Source: Cyanobacteriota bacterium (GTDB taxonomy: Bacteria > Acidobacteriota > Vicinamibacteria > Vicinamibacterales > UBA2999). Taken from it: a stretch of 64,000 bases of DNA. The stretch is from NCBI GenBank assembly GCA_019752015.1, contig JAIEMQ010000044.1:186001-250000 (forward strand), read 5' to 3'. Both the position numbers and the translations under genes were made by a program. Position 1 is the first letter of the stretch, and the number at the start of each line of letters is the position of its first letter. Of this stretch, positions 37,771 to 44,663 are shown piece by piece. Below the pieces are notes generated by a model, which saw only the letters and a program-made list of their open reading frames with translations, was not told the DNA's origin and ran no database searches.

Positions 37771-39651
37771 ATGAGCCCGCCACCCGATTCCGGACCACTG
37801 CCGCAGGGTCAGCGCCCGGAAGAACGGCTGTTCTCGCTCGACCCGGAACAATCGCGGCGCGAGCAATACCGGCGCCGCTACACGCTCGACGTCATCCAGA
37901 TTCCGATCATGCGCGTGATCGGCTTCGCGGCGATGACGCTGGCGGCGCTGCTCTACGACCTCAACCTCGAGCCGTTCCCGCTGCCGGGATTTCTGAAGCT
38001 CGCTGCGATCAACTTCGGCTACGCGCTGACGGCAGTGGTCGTGGTACGCGCGCTTTACGATCGCGTCGGGCGCTTCGACCTGACACTGCTCTTCCTGCAC
38101 ATCGACGTCGTCGTCTGGCTGTTCACGATGCATCACGTCAGCGCCGCCGATCAGTTGTTCGCGTTCTTCCTGCTAGTGCGCGTCGGCGACCAGGTCGGCT
38201 TCGGCTTCCGCCGCGCGTTTTACTTCACTCACGTCGTCGTCGCGACCTATCTCGCTTACTTGTGGTGGTTGTCGACGGGCACGTCCGATTTCTCGTGGGC
38301 ACAATACCTTTACGTCGCGGCGACGATGTATGTGATTGGCACGTACATCGCGATTACCGGCATTGCGATCGAATCGCTGCGAAAACGATCGAGCGCGGTC
38401 GTCAGGCAGGCGCGCGATCTCCTGCGCCAGCTCGAGACGCGCACCGAGGAACTGCGCGCCCAGGCGGTGGAGCTCGAACACGCCAGGGTCCAGGCCGAGG
38501 GCGCGAGCCAGGCGAAGTCGGCCTTTCTCGCGACGATGAGCCACGAGATCCGCACGCCGATGAACGGGGTCATCGGCATGACCAGTCTCCTGCTCGACAC
38601 CCCGCTCGACGCGACGCAGCGCGAATACACCGAAACCATTCGCCAGAGCGGACAGAACCTGCTCGTGATCATCAACGACATCCTCGATTTTTCGAAGGTC
38701 GAGTCGGGCGCGGTGATGCTCGACCCGCGGCCGTTCGACTTGCGCGATGCGGTCACGCGCGGTCTCGACCTGCTCGCGCCACAGGCGCGCGCGAAAGGCC
38801 TGGACCTCGATTTCAGAATCGAAGCAGGTGTGCCCGCGCGCATCGTTGCGGATGCCGAGCGGCTACGGCAAGTGATCGTCAATCTCGTCGCCAACGGCGT
38901 CAAATTCACCGAGCATGGGTCGATCGACGTGTCGATCAAACTGGCCGATGCGTCGAACGCGTCGCGTGACAAACCGCTGACCCTCGAGTTCCACGTGGTC
39001 GACACCGGAATGGGAATTCCGCCGGCACAGCAGGAGCTGCTGTTCCGCCCGTTTTCACAAGTCGACAGCAGCATCGCGCGACGTCACGGCGGAACCGGAC
39101 TGGGACTGGCGATCAGCAAGGGGCTGGTCACCGCCATGGGCGGAACGATCTGGGTGCGCAGCGACGCCGGCCTGGGTTCCAGTTTTACGTTCACGCTGCC
39201 AACATCGGCGGCGCCTGACGTCGCCGAGCCCGCGGAGGACGCCACGCCATTTGATGACACGCTGGCCGGACGGACGCCGTTGCGCATCCTGGTGGCCGAA
39301 GACAATGGCGTCAACCGCAAGGTGGTGCTCGCCATGCTCCGCCGCTTCGGCTACGACGCGGACGTTGCGCTCAACGGCCGCGAAGCGGTCGATGCGGCGC
39401 GGCGGCAGCGCTACGACCTGGTCCTGATGGACATCCAGATGCCGGAAATGGACGGCCTCGATGCGACGCGCGCGATCCTCGCGCTCGACTCGGCGCCGCC
39501 ACGCATCATCGGCCTCAGCGCCAACGCGATGACCGAGGATGTGGACGCCGCCAAGCAGGCCGGCATGAACGGCTACCTGGCCAAGCCGCTCGAGCCGGGC
39601 GAACTGCGACGCGTGCTCGACGGATCGGATTACGCCAGAAACATCTCGTAG
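37771..39651 (+). CDS. Membrane hybrid sensor histidine kinase with response-regulator domain
   Basis: A 626-aa protein. Six to seven helices in residues 45-195 form an integral membrane sensor ([21 protein letters not shown]...). A coiled linker (residues 210-250), then HisKA with the phosphoacceptor in [14 protein letters not shown], HATPase motifs [16 protein letters not shown] and [13 protein letters not shown], and a receiver domain (residues 508-620) with [13 protein letters not shown] (acceptor Asp) and [10 protein letters not shown]. No DNA-binding output, so it signals to another protein or a separate phosphotransfer protein. Its C-terminus overlaps ilvA (convergent) by 22 bases. Confidence 0.93.
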
Positions 39652-41147
39652 GCGGAATTCCGTTCCTCGAACTCGTAATCGTAGCCAAGCGTCTCGAGAA
39701 ATTCGCCGAATCGATCCGTGTCACCCTCGGGCACTTCGAATCCCGCCAGCACGCGGCCGAAATCCGATCCGTGATTGCGGTAATGAAACAGGCTGATGTT
39801 CCAGCGGCCGCCCAGACGATCGAGAAATTCCATCAGCGCGCCGGGCCGTTCGGGAAATTCAAAACGATAGAGACGCTCGTTGGCCAGCGCCGGCGCCCTG
39901 CCGCCGACCATGTGCCGGATGTGCAGCTTCGCCACTTCATCGTCGGTGAGATCGATCGCCGGATAGCCGGCGGCGTGCAAGAGGCCGAGCAGATCGATCG
40001 CCTGTTGTCGCGACGTGGTGGCGATGCCGACGAAGATGTGCGCGCGATCGCGCCCGCTCAGGCGATAGTTGAATTCCGTCACGACCCGCCGGCCGATCGT
40101 CGCGCAGAATTCGCGAAACGCGCCGGGCCGCTCCGGAATCGTCACGCCGACCAGCGCTTCGCGTGCTTCGCCGACTTCGGCCCGCTCCGCGACGAAGCGC
40201 AGCCGATCGAAATTCATGTTGGCGCCGGTCAGCACCGCAGCCAGCGTGTCGCCTGAGTGTCCGGATGCCGCGGCCCACGAGCGGAGACCGGCCACCGCCA
40301 GCGCGCCGGCCGGCTCCATCAACGATCGCGTGTCGTCGAACACATCCTTGATCGCCGCGCAGATCTCGTCGTTCGACACTCGAATCACGTCGTCAACCCC
40401 GGTTTGCGCGATCGCAAACGTCAGCGCGCCGACCTCTCGCACCGCCACGCCGTCCGCGAAGATGCCGACGCGATCGAGCGTGACGCGGCGTCCCGCGGCC
40501 AGCGACTGATACATCGCGTCGGCGTCAAACGGCTCGACACCGATGACGCGCACCTCGGGCCTGACCGCCTTGATGTAGCTGACGATGCCGGCGATCAACC
40601 CGCCGCCGCCGACGGGCACGAACACGGCGCTCAAATCACGCGGCGCTTGCGCCAGGATCTCGACCGCCACGGTGCCCTGCCCGGCGATCACCAGCGGATC
40701 GTCGAAGGGATGAATCAGGATCCGTCCGCTCGCACCGGCGCGCTGCTGACAGCGCTCGGCCGCATCCGCAAAAGTATCGCCGGCCAGCTCCACTGCCGCG
40801 CCGAGATCGCGGACCGCATCGACCTTGATCTCCGGAGTGGTCTGCGGCATGACGATCAGCGCGCTGATCTGCAGGTGGCGCGCCGCATAGGCCACGCCCT
40901 GGGCATGGTTGCCGGCGCTCGCGGTGATCACGCCGCGCTCGCGCTCCTCCGCCGACAGGTGCGCCATCCGGTTGTAGGCGCCGCGTAATTTGTAGGTGAA
41001 GATCGGCTGCAGATCCTCGCGCTTCAGGAACACCTGGTGGCCGGTCCTCCGCGACAACCGCCGCGCCAAATCGAGCGGAGTGGCAGCGACCACGTCGTAG
41101 ACGCGACTGTTCAGAATCAGCCGGAGCATCTGGTGTGGAGCGCTCAT
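39630..41147 (-). CDS. ilvA: Threonine ammonia-lyase (biosynthetic), two ACT-like domains
   Basis: Converts threonine to 2-oxobutanoate, the first step to isoleucine. PLP lysine in [10 protein letters not shown] (Lys53), phosphate-binding GGGGLIAG region, and two C-terminal regulatory modules (residues 330-505, [19 protein letters not shown]... and [21 protein letters not shown]) that bind isoleucine/valine. The ATG at 41147 overlaps the thrA stop (ATGA), so ilvA is translated with thrA and shares its attenuator. Length 505 aa is standard. Confidence 0.95.
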
Positions 41148-43603
41148 ACGCGCCCCAGCGAACAAATATCGTTCAGGATTCCGGCCGCGGTGACCTGCGC
41201 GCCGGCGCCAGGTCCACTGATCACCAGCGGCTCGCTGTGATAGCGGCGCGAATGAAACGTGACGATGTTCTGCGTGCCGCGGGCCGCGCCGATCGGGCTG
41301 GACGCCGGAACGGGACGTAATCCAGCGGTCACCTTCCTGCTGGTCGCCGACACGACATATCGCAATGGCCGCTGGCTTTCTGCCGCGCGCGCAACGCGGT
41401 CACGCCACATCGCATCGAGCTCCGGCAAACGATCGAGGAATTCCTCGAGCGGAAGATGCCGATACGCGGCAGGGACGAGATCGTCAGCGGCCGGCGCGGC
41501 GCCGCGATAGCCCATCATGCGCGCGAGAATCAGACCTTTGCGCGCGGCATCGCGGCCTGACAGATCGTCGCGCGGATCGGGCTCCGCATAGCCGCGTGCC
41601 ATCGCCTCTTTCACCGCCGACGAGAACGCGCGGCCGGCTGAGACTTCCGACATCACGAACGTCAGCGTGCCGCTGACGCAACCGTGGATCCGCAGCACGC
41701 GATCGCCGCTCTCGGCGAGCTTGCGATAGGTGTCGATGATTGGCAGTCCGGCGCCGACCGTGGCTTCATAACGCATTTGGCGCCCGACGGCGTCGCACGC
41801 CTGCAGCAGTTGCTCGTAACCGTCGCGCGTGTCGGCGAGTGGGCGCTTGTTCGCAAGCACGATGTCGAAGCCCTGGCCGATCGCCGCTTTCAACATGCTG
41901 GCCGTGTCGTCGCTCGTGACATCAACCACTACCGGTCTCGAGACGGCGTGATCCGACATGAACGCCAGCGCCTCATCGGCGTTGGCGGCGCGGCCGCCGA
42001 GCGACGACAACAACGCACCGTTTTCTTTGGCGCGTGCCAGCTTCAGGAGCTTCGCGCGGGACAGACCCCGGTTATCGAACACGTACCCCGATCGATCGAG
42101 CAGGCCGACGATGCGCGCACGCGGCTCGATCTTCGACGCCGCGATCTGATCCGCCAGCGCGCGGCCGACGCGGCCGAAGCCGAGCAGCACGATGTCCTTG
42201 TGCGTCGCCGCCACCGGCCGGCCGCCGCCGATCTTCGACAGCTGAAACGCGGCGTGCACCCGGCGGGTGGCTTCAGCGGCCTGTTCCGCCGCGACGACGA
42301 ACGAGATGTTGCGCTCCGACGATCCCTGCGCGATCGCCACGACGTTGATGCCGCCCGCCTCGAGCGCGCTGAAGACGCGCGCGCTGATGCCCGGCGTGCC
42401 GACCATGCCGTCTCCGACGACGGCAATGACGGCGGTCTTCGTCCGCGCGCTGACGCCGTCCACCCAGCCGTGCGCCATCTCCTCGCGCAAGCCGTGGCGC
42501 AGGCATGCCACCGCGCGATCGGCCTGTTCCTCCGGAACGGTGAACCCGATCGAGCTCTCGGAAGATGCCTGGAAGATTGTCGAGACCGACAAGCCTTCGG
42601 CCGACACCGAGGTGAACGTGCGCGCCGCGATGCCGTGCACGCCGGCCATGCCGCGCCCGGCCACCGTGATCACGGCTTGCGCCGGCAACACCGCGAGCGA
42701 TTTCACCGGAAACGATTTCGACGACTGCCGTGCGGAGACTTCCGTGCCCGGCAACGAGGGATCGATGAACGATCGCACGCGTAACGTGATGCGCGTGCCG
42801 GCGATCGGAATCAACGCGCGCGGGTGCAGGACCTTCGCGCCGTAGTGCGCGGCTTCCGCCGCTTCACGATGGTGCAGCTGCGGAATGACGCGCGCATCCG
42901 CGACCATGCGCGGATCGGCGGTCATGATGCCGGGGACATCCTTCCACAACATCACCTGCCGCGCGCCGAGCGATCGTGCCAGCGTGGTGGCGGTGAGATC
43001 GGTGCCGCCGCGGCCAAGCGTCGTGACGCTGCCGTCCGGCGCGCGGCCGATGAAGCCGGGCACGACCGCGATGGCGCCGCTGTCGATCAGCGGCTGCAGG
43101 ACTTTCCGCGCGCGGCGGCCGGTGTCGTCGAACAGCGGCGTCGCACCGGCATGGACATCGTTGGTGCGAATGATGTCCAGCGCATCAACGAATTGCGCGC
43201 GCTCGCGGCAGGCCGCCAGCGCCGCCGCCAGTAACCTCGCCGACAGTTGTTCGCCTCGTGCCGCCAGCGTATCGAGCGCGCGCGGTGATCGATCGCCCAG
43301 CACACGCATCGCTGAAGCGAGATGGCGAAACTCCTCCACCGCTGCTTCGATGGTCGCGATCAGCGTGTCGCGCGTGGCGCCCGCCGGCGCGATCGCCCGC
43401 GCCGCCTGCACATGCTTGTGGCGCAGCGTCTCCGCGGCATCAGGATCCGCGGACAGCAGCAGGTCGGTGACGCCGGCCAGCGCCGAGGCGACGACCACGA
43501 GCGGGCCGTCGTGCCCGGCAATCCGCTCCACTGCTTTCTGTATCGCGCGCGCATCCGCCAGCGCCGCGCCGCCGAACTTCCACACTTGAACCGTTGAACC
43601 CAT
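41144..43603 (-). CDS. thrA: Bifunctional aspartate kinase / homoserine dehydrogenase
   Basis: An 819-aa enzyme that starts and continues the threonine branch. Kinase domain: VWKFGGAALAD (1-12), GRGGTDLTATTLA; two ACT domains in residues 310-470 (VITVAGRGMAGVHGIAARTFTSVS, VIAVVGDGMVGTPGISARVFSALEAGGINVVAIAQGSSERNISF). Dehydrogenase domain: DIVLLGFGRVGRALADQI, VLANKRPLA, GAGLPIIDTYRKL, EPDPRDDLSGRDAARKG. ATG follows a short CAGAAAG repeat. Regulated by a leader attenuator at 43647-43783. ilvA follows by overlap. Confidence 0.96.
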   Translation of the reverse strand: MGSTVQVWKFGGAALADARAIQKAVERIAGHDGPLVVVASALAGVTDLLLSADPDAAETLRHKHVQAARAIAPAGATRDTLIATIEAAVEEFRHLASAMRVLGDRSPRALDTLAARGEQLSARLLAAALAACRERAQFVDALDIIRTNDVHAGATPLFDDTGRRARKVLQPLIDSGAIAVVPGFIGRAPDGSVTTLGRGGTDLTATTLARSLGARQVMLWKDVPGIMTADPRMVADARVIPQLHHREAAEAAHYGAKVLHPRALIPIAGTRITLRVRSFIDPSLPGTEVSARQSSKSFPVKSLAVLPAQAVITVAGRGMAGVHGIAARTFTSVSAEGLSVSTIFQASSESSIGFTVPEEQADRAVACLRHGLREEMAHGWVDGVSARTKTAVIAVVGDGMVGTPGISARVFSALEAGGINVVAIAQGSSERNISFVVAAEQAAEATRRVHAAFQLSKIGGGRPVAATHKDIVLLGFGRVGRALADQIAASKIEPRARIVGLLDRSGYVFDNRGLSRAKLLKLARAKENGALLSSLGGRAANADEALAFMSDHAVSRPVVVDVTSDDTASMLKAAIGQGFDIVLANKRPLADTRDGYEQLLQACDAVGRQMRYEATVGAGLPIIDTYRKLAESGDRVLRIHGCVSGTLTFVMSEVSAGRAFSSAVKEAMARGYAEPDPRDDLSGRDAARKGLILARMMGYRGAAPAADDLVPAAYRHLPLEEFLDRLPELDAMWRDRVARAAESQRPLRYVVSATSRKVTAGLRPVPASSPIGAARGTQNIVTFHSRRYHSEPLVISGPGAGAQVTAAGILNDICSLGRV

Positions 43604-43646: not shown

Positions 43647-43679
43647 AAAAGGCCATCACCCCTTTGCGGATGATGGCCT
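43647..43679 (-). terminator. Rho-independent attenuator terminator of thrA
   Basis: Minus-strand AGGCCATCA (43679-43671), 12-base loop, TGATGGCCT (43658-43650), then a short T-run (TTTT to 43647). Nine perfect base pairs, 43 bases before the thrA ATG and after the leader peptide. The T-run is short, typical of attenuators that are meant to leak. Confidence 0.8.
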
Positions 43680-43734
43680 CGTCTTAAGCCCCGGTGTCTG
43701 TATAGATCACCTCATCCGCGTGGCACTCCACACG
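43666..43734 (-). promoter_or_regulatory. Pause and antiterminator pairing of the thr leader
   Basis: On the minus strand, CGTGTGG (43734-43728) can pair with CCACGCG (43723-43717), an early hairpin in the leader codons. The overlapping GCGGATGA (43719-43712) is complementary over eight bases to TCATCCGC (43673-43666), part of the terminator 5' arm and loop. These pairings exclude one another in the classic 1:2, 2:3, 3:4 order. Confidence 0.7.
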
Positions 43735-43783
43735 TAGTCGTCGTAATGACGATAGTGGTCGCCGCGGACGGGTGCGTCTGCAT
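43712..43783 (-). CDS. thrL: Threonine/isoleucine-rich leader peptide of thrA
   Basis: A 23-codon frame between the dehydrogenase stop and thrA. The peptide reads MQTHPSAATT, then IVITTTTCGVPRG. It has seven threonines and two isoleucines, with the cluster ACC ACT ATC GTC ATT ACG ACG ACT ACG (43759-43733). A ribosome stalled on these codons would leave the downstream arm GCGGATGA (43719-43712) free to pair with the terminator arm. At the stop codon the ribosome would cover it and allow termination. Shine-Dalgarno is absent, so the leader may be translated as leaderless or by coupling to the gene 19 bases upstream. Called by analogy to enteric ThrL. Confidence 0.75.
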   Translation of the reverse strand: MQTHPSAATTIVITTTTCGVPRG

Positions 43784-43802
43784 GAGGTGGAGCGCTAGGC
43801 TA

Positions 43803-44663
43803 TCACGACTTCGGCGGGTACTCGTAAAAGCCCTTGCCGGACTTCTTGCCCAGATGCCCCGCCAGCACCATGCGTTTCAGTAATGGCGGCGGTGCAAAAC
43901 GCTGCTCCCTGAACTCGTCGAACATGATGTTCGCGATGTAATAAGTAGTGTCGAGGCCGACGAAATCGAGCAGCGTCAGCGGGCCCATCGGATGTCCGCA
44001 GCCGAGCTTCATGCCGGTGTCGATGTCCTGCGGCGTGCCCAGGCCCTCTTCGACGCAGCGAATCGCGTCGAGCAGGTACGGCACCAGCAGGCGGTTGACG
44101 ATGAAGCCGCCCTTGTCCGGCGCGGTAATCGGTTCCTTGCCGATCGCCCTGACGAACGCCATCAACGCATCGTGCGTTTCCTGCGTCGTCGCCAGCGCTC
44201 GAATCACCTCGACGAGCTTCATCAGCGGCACCGGATTGAAGAAGTGGAGACCCGCGACTTTGTCGGGACGCTTCGTGCCGGCGCCAAGCTCGGTGATGCA
44301 AAGAGACGATGTATTCGACGCGATGATGCAGTGCGGGCCGACCACCGCTTCCACCTGCGCGTAGGCCTGCTTCTTGATCTCGACGTTCTCGATGATCGCT
44401 TCGATCACGAGATCGCAATCCTTCAGGTCGGCGTACTTGGTTGTGCCTTTCAGGTTGCCGAGCGTCGTCTTCTTCGCGTCCTCGGTGACCTTGCCCTTCG
44501 CCACGCCGTCGGTCAGGAACTTCTCGATGCGGCCGAGCCCCTTGTTCAATACATCCTCGTTGACTTCGAGAACGATGGTCTTGAATCCCGCCGCCGCGGA
44601 CACCTGCGCAATGCCCGCGCCCATCAACCCGCAACCCAATACACCAACCGTTTTGATCGCCAT
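43803..44663 (-). CDS. hbd: 3-hydroxyacyl-CoA (3-hydroxybutyryl-CoA) dehydrogenase
   Basis: A 286-aa NAD-dependent dehydrogenase. Rossmann motif GVLGCGLMGAGIA (residues 6-18), catalytic SNTSS (Ser), HFFNPVPLMKLVEVI with the catalytic His and NRLL, plus GGFIVNRLLVPYLLDAIRC and GHPMGPLTLLDFVGLD. It oxidises 3-hydroxyacyl-CoA to 3-ketoacyl-CoA, the substrate of the thiolases upstream. No enoyl-CoA hydratase domain. Ribosome region is a heptamer repeat array. The thrA leader begins 19 bases after its stop. Confidence 0.93.
   Translation of the reverse strand: MAIKTVGVLGCGLMGAGIAQVSAAAGFKTIVLEVNEDVLNKGLGRIEKFLTDGVAKGKVTEDAKKTTLGNLKGTTKYADLKDCDLVIEAIIENVEIKKQAYAQVEAVVGPHCIIASNTSSLCITELGAGTKRPDKVAGLHFFNPVPLMKLVEVIRALATTQETHDALMAFVRAIGKEPITAPDKGGFIVNRLLVPYLLDAIRCVEEGLGTPQDIDTGMKLGCGHPMGPLTLLDFVGLDTTYYIANIMFDEFREQRFAPPPLLKRMVLAGHLGKKSGKGFYEYPPKS

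Follow-up and report, generated by a model that had tools for sequence, protein, structure and literature searches.

The thrA-ilvA locus and its leader

The stretch of DNA analysed here (the window) comprises 64,000 nucleotides. On its minus strand lie thrA (41144..43603), which encodes a bifunctional aspartate kinase/homoserine dehydrogenase, and ilvA (39630..41147), which encodes a threonine ammonia-lyase and whose start overlaps the stop of thrA in the sequence ATGA. Both genes had been named in the initial annotation, and both are supported by NCBIfam models. The ilvA product exceeds the cut-off for threonine ammonia-lyase. The thrA product is matched over its full length by the model for bifunctional aspartate kinase/homoserine dehydrogenase I, at 660.6 bits and so below the cut-off of 726, and it scores above threshold with the more general aspartate kinase model. 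Upstream of the leader is a gene, by eye that of a hydroxyacyl-CoA dehydrogenase, that ends at 43803.

Between this gene and thrA, a short frame (43783-43712, minus strand) encodes the peptide MQTHPSAATTIVITTTTCGVPRG, followed by a stop. Its 23 codons include seven for Thr and two for Ile, as the sequence had first been read. The putative regulatory codons are codons 9-17 (43733..43759, minus strand; TTIVITTTT), cognate codons lying at a similar distance from the stop in leaders of the family described below. In the best nine-codon window of the leader, eight of the nine codons are for Thr or Ile. No other of the window's 760 short-frame ends has as many as seven such codons in nine, and 20 block-shuffled windows provided none among 26,121. 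Here, then, a short frame carries a run of codons for the product of the operon that follows it.

One reading of the element would be a 3' terminator of the upstream dehydrogenase gene, with the Thr-rich frame arising by chance. The element does lie directly behind that gene, where an intrinsic terminator is expected. A frame this rare in the window and its shuffles is, conversely, a poor candidate for coincidence, and two properties of the family, given below, weigh on the same side.

Competing hairpins

The leader stop codon, TGA, lies within GCGGATGA (43712..43719, minus strand), the antiterminator arm (region 2) recognised by its sequence, conservation and covariation. This placement of the stop inside the arm goes beyond what had been annotated. 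The partner of the arm (region 3), TCATCCGC (43666..43673, minus strand), is supported by the predicted fold and by covariation, and overlaps the 5' arm and the loop of the terminator. The two segments form eight perfect pairs (43719-43712 with 43673-43666), just as had been proposed, and the helix appears in the predicted fold once the 3' arm of the terminator is omitted (z -2.35; shuffles equally good, 7/200).

The intrinsic terminator (3:4; 43649..43680, minus strand) was found where the initial annotation had placed it, but with 13 pairs (43680-43668 with 43661-43649, enclosing a six-base loop) rather than nine. Folded alone, it has a predicted energy of -24.4 kcal/mol (z -5.1), which none of 200 shuffles equals. 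The sequence at its end is the T-run TTTT (43647..43650, minus strand). Ahead of the first gene there is thus an intrinsic terminator with a U-tract, the U-tract of the window being short, at four T.

Upstream of the arm the picture is less simple. A protector (1:2) hairpin, CGTGTGG-AGTG-CCACGCG (43717..43734, minus strand), is predicted to overlap the first three bases of the antiterminator arm. Its seven base pairs (43734-43728 with 43723-43717), earlier described as a pause hairpin, are present when 43735-43645 is folded. When the whole leader is folded (43790-43645), however, the hairpin gives way to a pairing of CGTCCGC (43770-43764) with GCGGATG (43719-43713). This alternative protector segment (43764..43770, minus strand) is predicted from one sequence only. 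Both predicted pairings engage the antiterminator arm, so an untranslated RNA would hide the arm either way.

thrA leaders in relatives

ThrA was found in 31 of 193 genomes of the class by protein search (E≤1e-150), three further genomes of the genus giving no match at that threshold. Thirty thrA loci were read; 28 had usable upstream sequence and two had none. A Thr-rich leader frame precedes thrA in seven of the 28. These are all six genomes of the window's genus in which thrA was matched, the genome of the window among them, and one genome (G137) of another genus of the same family. The conservation of the frame in relatives, suggested at the outset as a check, is therefore present and, wherever thrA was matched, complete within the genus. 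The peptides of the relatives are 26-56% identical to that of the window, and all are Thr-rich. Each frame stops at or just past the arm, whose core is CGGATGA in each, and the terminator follows.

No Thr-rich leader was found in the other 21 of the 28 readable upstream regions, the weak frames of four loci (L014, L015, L016 and L025; 4/9 Thr/Ile) not being scored as leaders. A motif scan placed ilvA beside thrA in three of the leader-bearing genomes (G000, G107 and G112); at the other four leader-bearing loci, it found no ilvA beside thrA in the stretch scanned. Among the 21 leaderless loci, four (L011, L016, L022 and L023) have an ilvA-like gene beside thrA. Because 21 of the 28 regions are leaderless, and because four of these have such a neighbour, the leader is restricted to a lineage and is not required by the thrA-ilvA gene order.

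A search of contigs with a single ThrA protein found no relative. With a ThrA alignment, 80 thrA loci were kept, one of which (L294, E 0.85) was rejected as a chance match. The element is present in only five of the 80 thrA loci from named genomes (L252-L255 and L263), and these are contigs of G112, G107, G111, G110 and G137, hence not independent cases. A search for Thr-rich frames in 72 of the 80 loci returned four of the five carriers and three other frames (L297, L326 and L328); it missed L253 because the leader there has only 5/9 Thr/Ile. One of the five, L255, lies on a contig titled Acidimicrobiia bacterium, yet carries thrA and a Thr leader as in a genome of the window's genus; the title is probably wrong.

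A family of elements in the Acidobacteriota

The part of the element from arm to terminator is not confined to thrA. A covariance model of this part only, built on six thrA leaders (R1), gave strong matches elsewhere in the class. A second model (R2) was built on 67 matches, again with the antiterminator arm and terminator only and with the leader excluded. At E≤1e-4, R2 matched 93 of 193 genomes of the class. In a sample of 396 genomes from the phylum it matched 55, of which 30 lie outside the class; the figure of 55 is an upper estimate, since several elements outside the class look like plain terminators. That some distant matches do so is a point for the simple terminator reading given above.

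Among the matches listed, 162 elements were tabulated, 131 from the class (89 genomes) and 31 from outside it (25 genomes), leaving out reverse-strand echoes of the palindromic stem and some of the weakest matches. All were gathered by a model that favours consensus arms. The arm anchor G[AG]TGA is absent from 17 of the 162, and some of the 162 are probably plain terminators. Of the 31 elements outside the class but inside the phylum, 22 have the anchor and 21 (in 16 genomes) have a recognised gene.

Downstream genes were grouped by BLAST clusters, sequence signatures and reading. A recognised amino-acid gene follows 126 of the 162 elements: hom (37), ilvD (34), pheA (20), ilvB (9), thrA (7), ilvN (7), cimA (4), ilvA (3), ileS (2), gltB (2) and a cysG-type gene (1). 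The remainder precede a LysR-type gene (5), a 73-amino-acid protein (5), no recognised gene (25) or a contig edge (1). One representative each of ilvD, pheA, hom, cysG, cimA, ilvN and ileS matched the expected NCBIfam family, some with scores under the whole-protein cut-offs because several of the proteins are incomplete.

The genome of the window has two clear R2 members. The next match (E 0.018) is a reverse-strand echo of one of these, and the next separate place has E 0.079. With two clear matches only, the notion that the element is a genome-wide repeat was rejected. The second member (L067/L125; C37:50125-50199, minus strand) has a Leu-rich leader, MKGVVILSLRGLLGVLSLIGIGLSNDAG, before a 73-amino-acid protein whose gene is convergent with ilvC. 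This protein has no NCBIfam match; by BLAST cluster, six loci of the genus have a related small protein downstream of the element.

As a negative control, R2 was run on 200 genomes of the phylum of Lysobacter. Five matched at E≤1e-4, the best at 2.8e-6; read by eye, these five and one weaker match showed no cognate leader before a recognised gene. One control match (L335) was considered and rejected: its arm is partly complementary, but its open frames resemble the end of a protein gene. One genome each of Gemmatimonadota and Myxococcota gave no match at E≤0.01.

The hairpin might conceivably act not as an intrinsic terminator but through its closeness to a start codon. In some family members it does lie near a mechanically called start codon, the median distance of called starts being 16. 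In the window, however, thrA starts 45 bases past the hairpin, and 157 of the 162 elements end in at least four T, as intrinsic terminators do. Action through the start codon is thus quite improbable.

Leader codons and the genes that follow

Because the model excludes the leader, the codons of the leader provide an independent test. Two stops lie near the arm, and codon statistics were taken from the highest-scoring window of nine codons upstream of either one, for the 145 of 162 elements that have the G[AG]TGA anchor. Thr and Met together make up 0.67 of this window before thrA (n=7; 0.24 when shuffled for composition) and 0.49 before hom (n=34; shuffled, 0.21). Before BCAA genes they make up 0.22 (n=58), and before pheA-type operons 0.19 (n=17). 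Val, Ile and Leu show the converse, at 0.63 before both BCAA genes and pheA-type operons (shuffled, 0.42 and 0.41), against 0.33-0.35 before thrA or hom. Over these 116 elements, none of 20,000 shuffles of the gene labels matched the observed difference for either codon set. When only mutually dissimilar leaders were kept (78, 63 or 45 of them), the matching shuffles for the two codon sets were 0 and 0, 0 and 0, and 0 and 14 of 20,000. A plain terminator gives no reason for leader codons to follow the downstream gene in this way.

The Val leaders of pheA-type operons fit this pattern, as an acetolactate synthase gene follows the pheA-type genes in all three loci that were read further. Examples of leaders elsewhere are LAIIIRLIILPASGSG before citramalate synthase, IITPIGIPIGIIGAGIRVGRGRVM before isoleucyl-tRNA synthetase, ICPICSCCCTTMMPGTSG before siroheme synthase and MSMPMSMRMRTVSAMSMRSRSSG before hom. 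In the two loci where the switch precedes gltB-like glutamate synthase genes (L164 and L248), no Glu/Gln run was found in the leader frames.

Several single observations stand beside these. Within one genus, three genomes (L053, L055 and L089) have Met-rich leaders before the homoserine dehydrogenase gene, and MSMPMSMRMRTVSAMSMRSRSSG is one of these. Leaders before hom in other genera have Thr or mixed Thr/Met codons, so that lineages appear to differ in the amino acid that is sensed. A Cys-rich leader, CPICSCCC, precedes a gene for a siroheme synthase N-terminal domain in a single case (L045). The switch also stands before LysR-type regulator genes in five loci (L047, L048, L083, L182 and L184), where four of the five leaders are clearly rich in Val, Leu and Ile; this suggests attenuation of a regulator.

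Not only the identity of the codons but also their position is regular. A spacing profile was drawn from leaders with a window of at least 4/9, namely 71 of 75 BCAA and pheA-type leaders and 33 of 41 Thr/Met leaders. Few of the last six codons are cognate, at 1-18% in the BCAA group (n=71) and 0-24% in the Thr/Met group (n=33), the constant terminal Met of some frames counting towards the latter. From position 7 the cognate share climbs, reaching 52-70% at codons 7-9 and again at 14-18 of the BCAA leaders and up to 70% at codon 11 of the Thr/Met leaders. Some frames are closed by the TGA within the arm, others by a stop that lies five bases downstream of it. A ribosome covers about 15 bases. 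By this codon profile, a ribosome at the regulatory codons would leave the arm free, and one at the stop would cover it.

These codons also bear on a different kind of sensor. In a riboswitch or a T-box, the RNA itself would sense a ligand or an uncharged tRNA, without a ribosome, and the control logic would be identical. No Rfam family (4227 searched at the gathering score) matched anywhere in the window, the Thr leader family included. A permissive search of 601 bases, up to E 10, returned three matches, all to other families and all far under their gathering scores; 20 loci of the family gave nothing at threshold. Further, it is mainly the two arms and the stop that are conserved, and what lies upstream of the arm tracks the downstream gene as codons. 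A sensor of this kind is therefore extremely unlikely here.

Covariation

The most informative pairs of the antiterminator are the two that fall in the loop of the terminator, since the terminator does not constrain its loop. In the 127 of 162 elements with the required anchors, these two positions form 1.33 Watson-Crick pairs per element, a value reached in none of 2000 shuffles, for which the figure is 0.90. With the elements reduced to 85 distinct arm combinations, the figures are 1.11 and 0.76, again with 0/2000. A third loop position is paired in only 0.24 of elements.

In an alignment of 67 rows, pairing of the antiterminator helix stands at 95.2%. Double changes occur in 12 of its cells, where shuffling gives 3.1 (0/500), but the count of pairs with such changes, three, is reached in 149 of 500 shuffles. 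For the terminator, pairing in the same alignment is 96.6%, and seven of its pairs are changed on both sides (0/500). Both percentages lean upwards, because the rows were gathered for their consensus and aligned by their fit to the terminator, and kinship of the sequences inflates the shuffle tests. Among the six thrA leaders alone, covariation of the terminator is weak (25/500 shuffles). Covariation of the stems, the other check first suggested, was thus found for both hairpins family-wide, and the two are mutually exclusive.

Pairs in the loop that covary with the arm are something that a plain terminator would not need. Together with the rarity of the frame and the match of leader codons to genes, they make it very unlikely that the hairpin merely ends the dehydrogenase gene.

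Folding ahead of the arm points to a protector (1:2) pairing in the family as well. The 36 bases before the arm core fold more stably than their shuffles by a mean z of -1.71 for thrA (n=7) and -1.32 for BCAA and pheA-type leaders (n=75), against 0.07 in the control (n=116). The signal is weaker for hom, at -0.54. Two pheA-type leaders show the textbook 1:2 hairpin, the arm being paired with the Val codons themselves.

Candidate promoters and the start of the leader transcript

A candidate extended -10 promoter, TGATAGCCT (43797..43805, minus strand), lies 13 bases before the leader ATG and overlaps the stop codon of the upstream gene. By eye, TGNTAGNCT stands 10-13 bases ahead of the ATG in five of the seven thrA leaders. 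A scan of the window with the sigma-70 consensus found no promoter ahead of the leader and did not pick up TGATAGCCT.

In the family, promoters were sought in 144 of the 162 elements. Strict promoters (TTGAC, spacer, -10 box) precede 26 of these leaders, where mononucleotide shuffles lead one to expect 0.5. Of the 26, 17 have a -10 box whose end lies 8-13 bases ahead of the first start codon in frame. With such a spacing, transcripts would begin at or just before the AUG. For 17 of the 144 leaders, therefore, the transcript probably has little or no sequence ahead of the start codon. In Streptomyces and Corynebacterium, transcription of leader peptides with no 5' leader is already on record, according to the available portions of PMC8079986 and PMC11857589, and with these cases published, near-leaderless leader transcripts in acidobacteria would not be new in kind.

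Proposed mechanism

Leader conservation, family covariation and the match of codons to genes all favour the attenuator reading of the initial annotation. Very probably, the element is a ribosome-mediated transcription attenuator of thrA-ilvA that senses the supply of threonyl-tRNA and, probably, of isoleucyl-tRNA. The stalling, termination and regulation that follow are what we infer from its sequence. When charged Thr-tRNA is scarce, a ribosome would stall on codons 9-17. There it would mask the upstream protector pairings and leave GCGGATGA free to pair with TCATCCGC. This, in turn, would prevent the terminator, and RNA polymerase would continue into thrA-ilvA. When Thr is plentiful, the ribosome would reach the TGA inside GCGGATGA and cover the arm, and the terminator would form.

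Comparison with known systems

In the thr operon attenuator of E. coli, a leader peptide rich in Thr and Ile (thrL) is coupled to a competition between terminator and antiterminator, and the first gene is that of aspartate kinase/homoserine dehydrogenase I. The element of the window resembles it in each respect, with its Thr/Ile-rich leader, its competing hairpins and an aspartate kinase/homoserine dehydrogenase as first gene. It differs in having ilvA directly after thrA and the stop codon inside the antiterminator arm; its arms, further, carry the sequence of the acidobacterial family and have no Rfam match.

In Actinobacteria, the available text on C. glutamicum ilvBNC (PMC11857589) and S. 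lividans (PMC8079986) and that of a comparative study (PMC1262725) describe cognate leader codons, as here, and several of these attenuators have, like the acidobacterial family, both an antiterminator and a terminator. Actinobacterial leader transcripts are reported to begin at the AUG or very close to it, as is suggested here too. As far as those texts go, however, actinobacterial attenuators are described operon by operon, whereas in the acidobacterial family one switch serves thr, hom, BCAA, ileS and cys-type leaders.

The uORFC motifs of an RNA search in 26 genomes (PMC8632094) likewise have a conserved short frame with cognate codons before a gene (cysS, for example), and the accessible part of that paper judges them to be ribosome-mediated attenuation. 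The cysS motif there concerns one gene and one order; the string 'acidobact' is absent from the main text in the form available. The acidobacterial attenuators of PMC2965389 stand without assignment in the portion available, while function and mechanism are proposed here for a large set.

The initial annotation knew of no such attenuator in acidobacteria, and novelty there fits the literature searched: no leader-peptide attenuation was found for Acidobacteriota in the portions available, though the review of Lopatovskaya et al. (2010) may hold cases. Papers with both 'Acidobacteriota' and 'leader peptide' use the terms, in the parts available, in other senses (export signal, peptide natural products, the title of a reference). 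PMC4833913, in its available part, tallies the short leader genes of Acidobacteria according to how far they lie from the gene. The mechanism is classical, of course. In the literature searched, neither its occurrence in this phylum nor a constant switch with exchangeable sensor codons seems to have been described.

Meaning of the family

In the acidobacterial family to which the element of the window belongs, the switch hardly varies and the leader codons change from operon to operon. The initial annotation had described a single attenuator; the phylum has a whole set of them, which between them serve several amino acids. How the set arose is a more speculative matter. A possible but doubtful view is that it represents one cassette of common origin, copied before many amino-acid operons and re-aimed each time through its leader codons only, with GCGGAUGAUG (stop inside) against CAUCAUCCGC nearly fixed. 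Base pairing alone needs no identical letters in unrelated operons. For this reason, the fixed sequence of the switch may have a second reader, for instance release at the stop context or a termination factor.

The family has consequences at several levels. With a plug-in leader and one constant switch, it is handy for the construction of reporters. With sensor codons that are interchangeable, the amino acid sensed by each operon becomes predictable from sequence. Finally, the family is a natural set in which to see how attenuators arise, spread and change their specificity.
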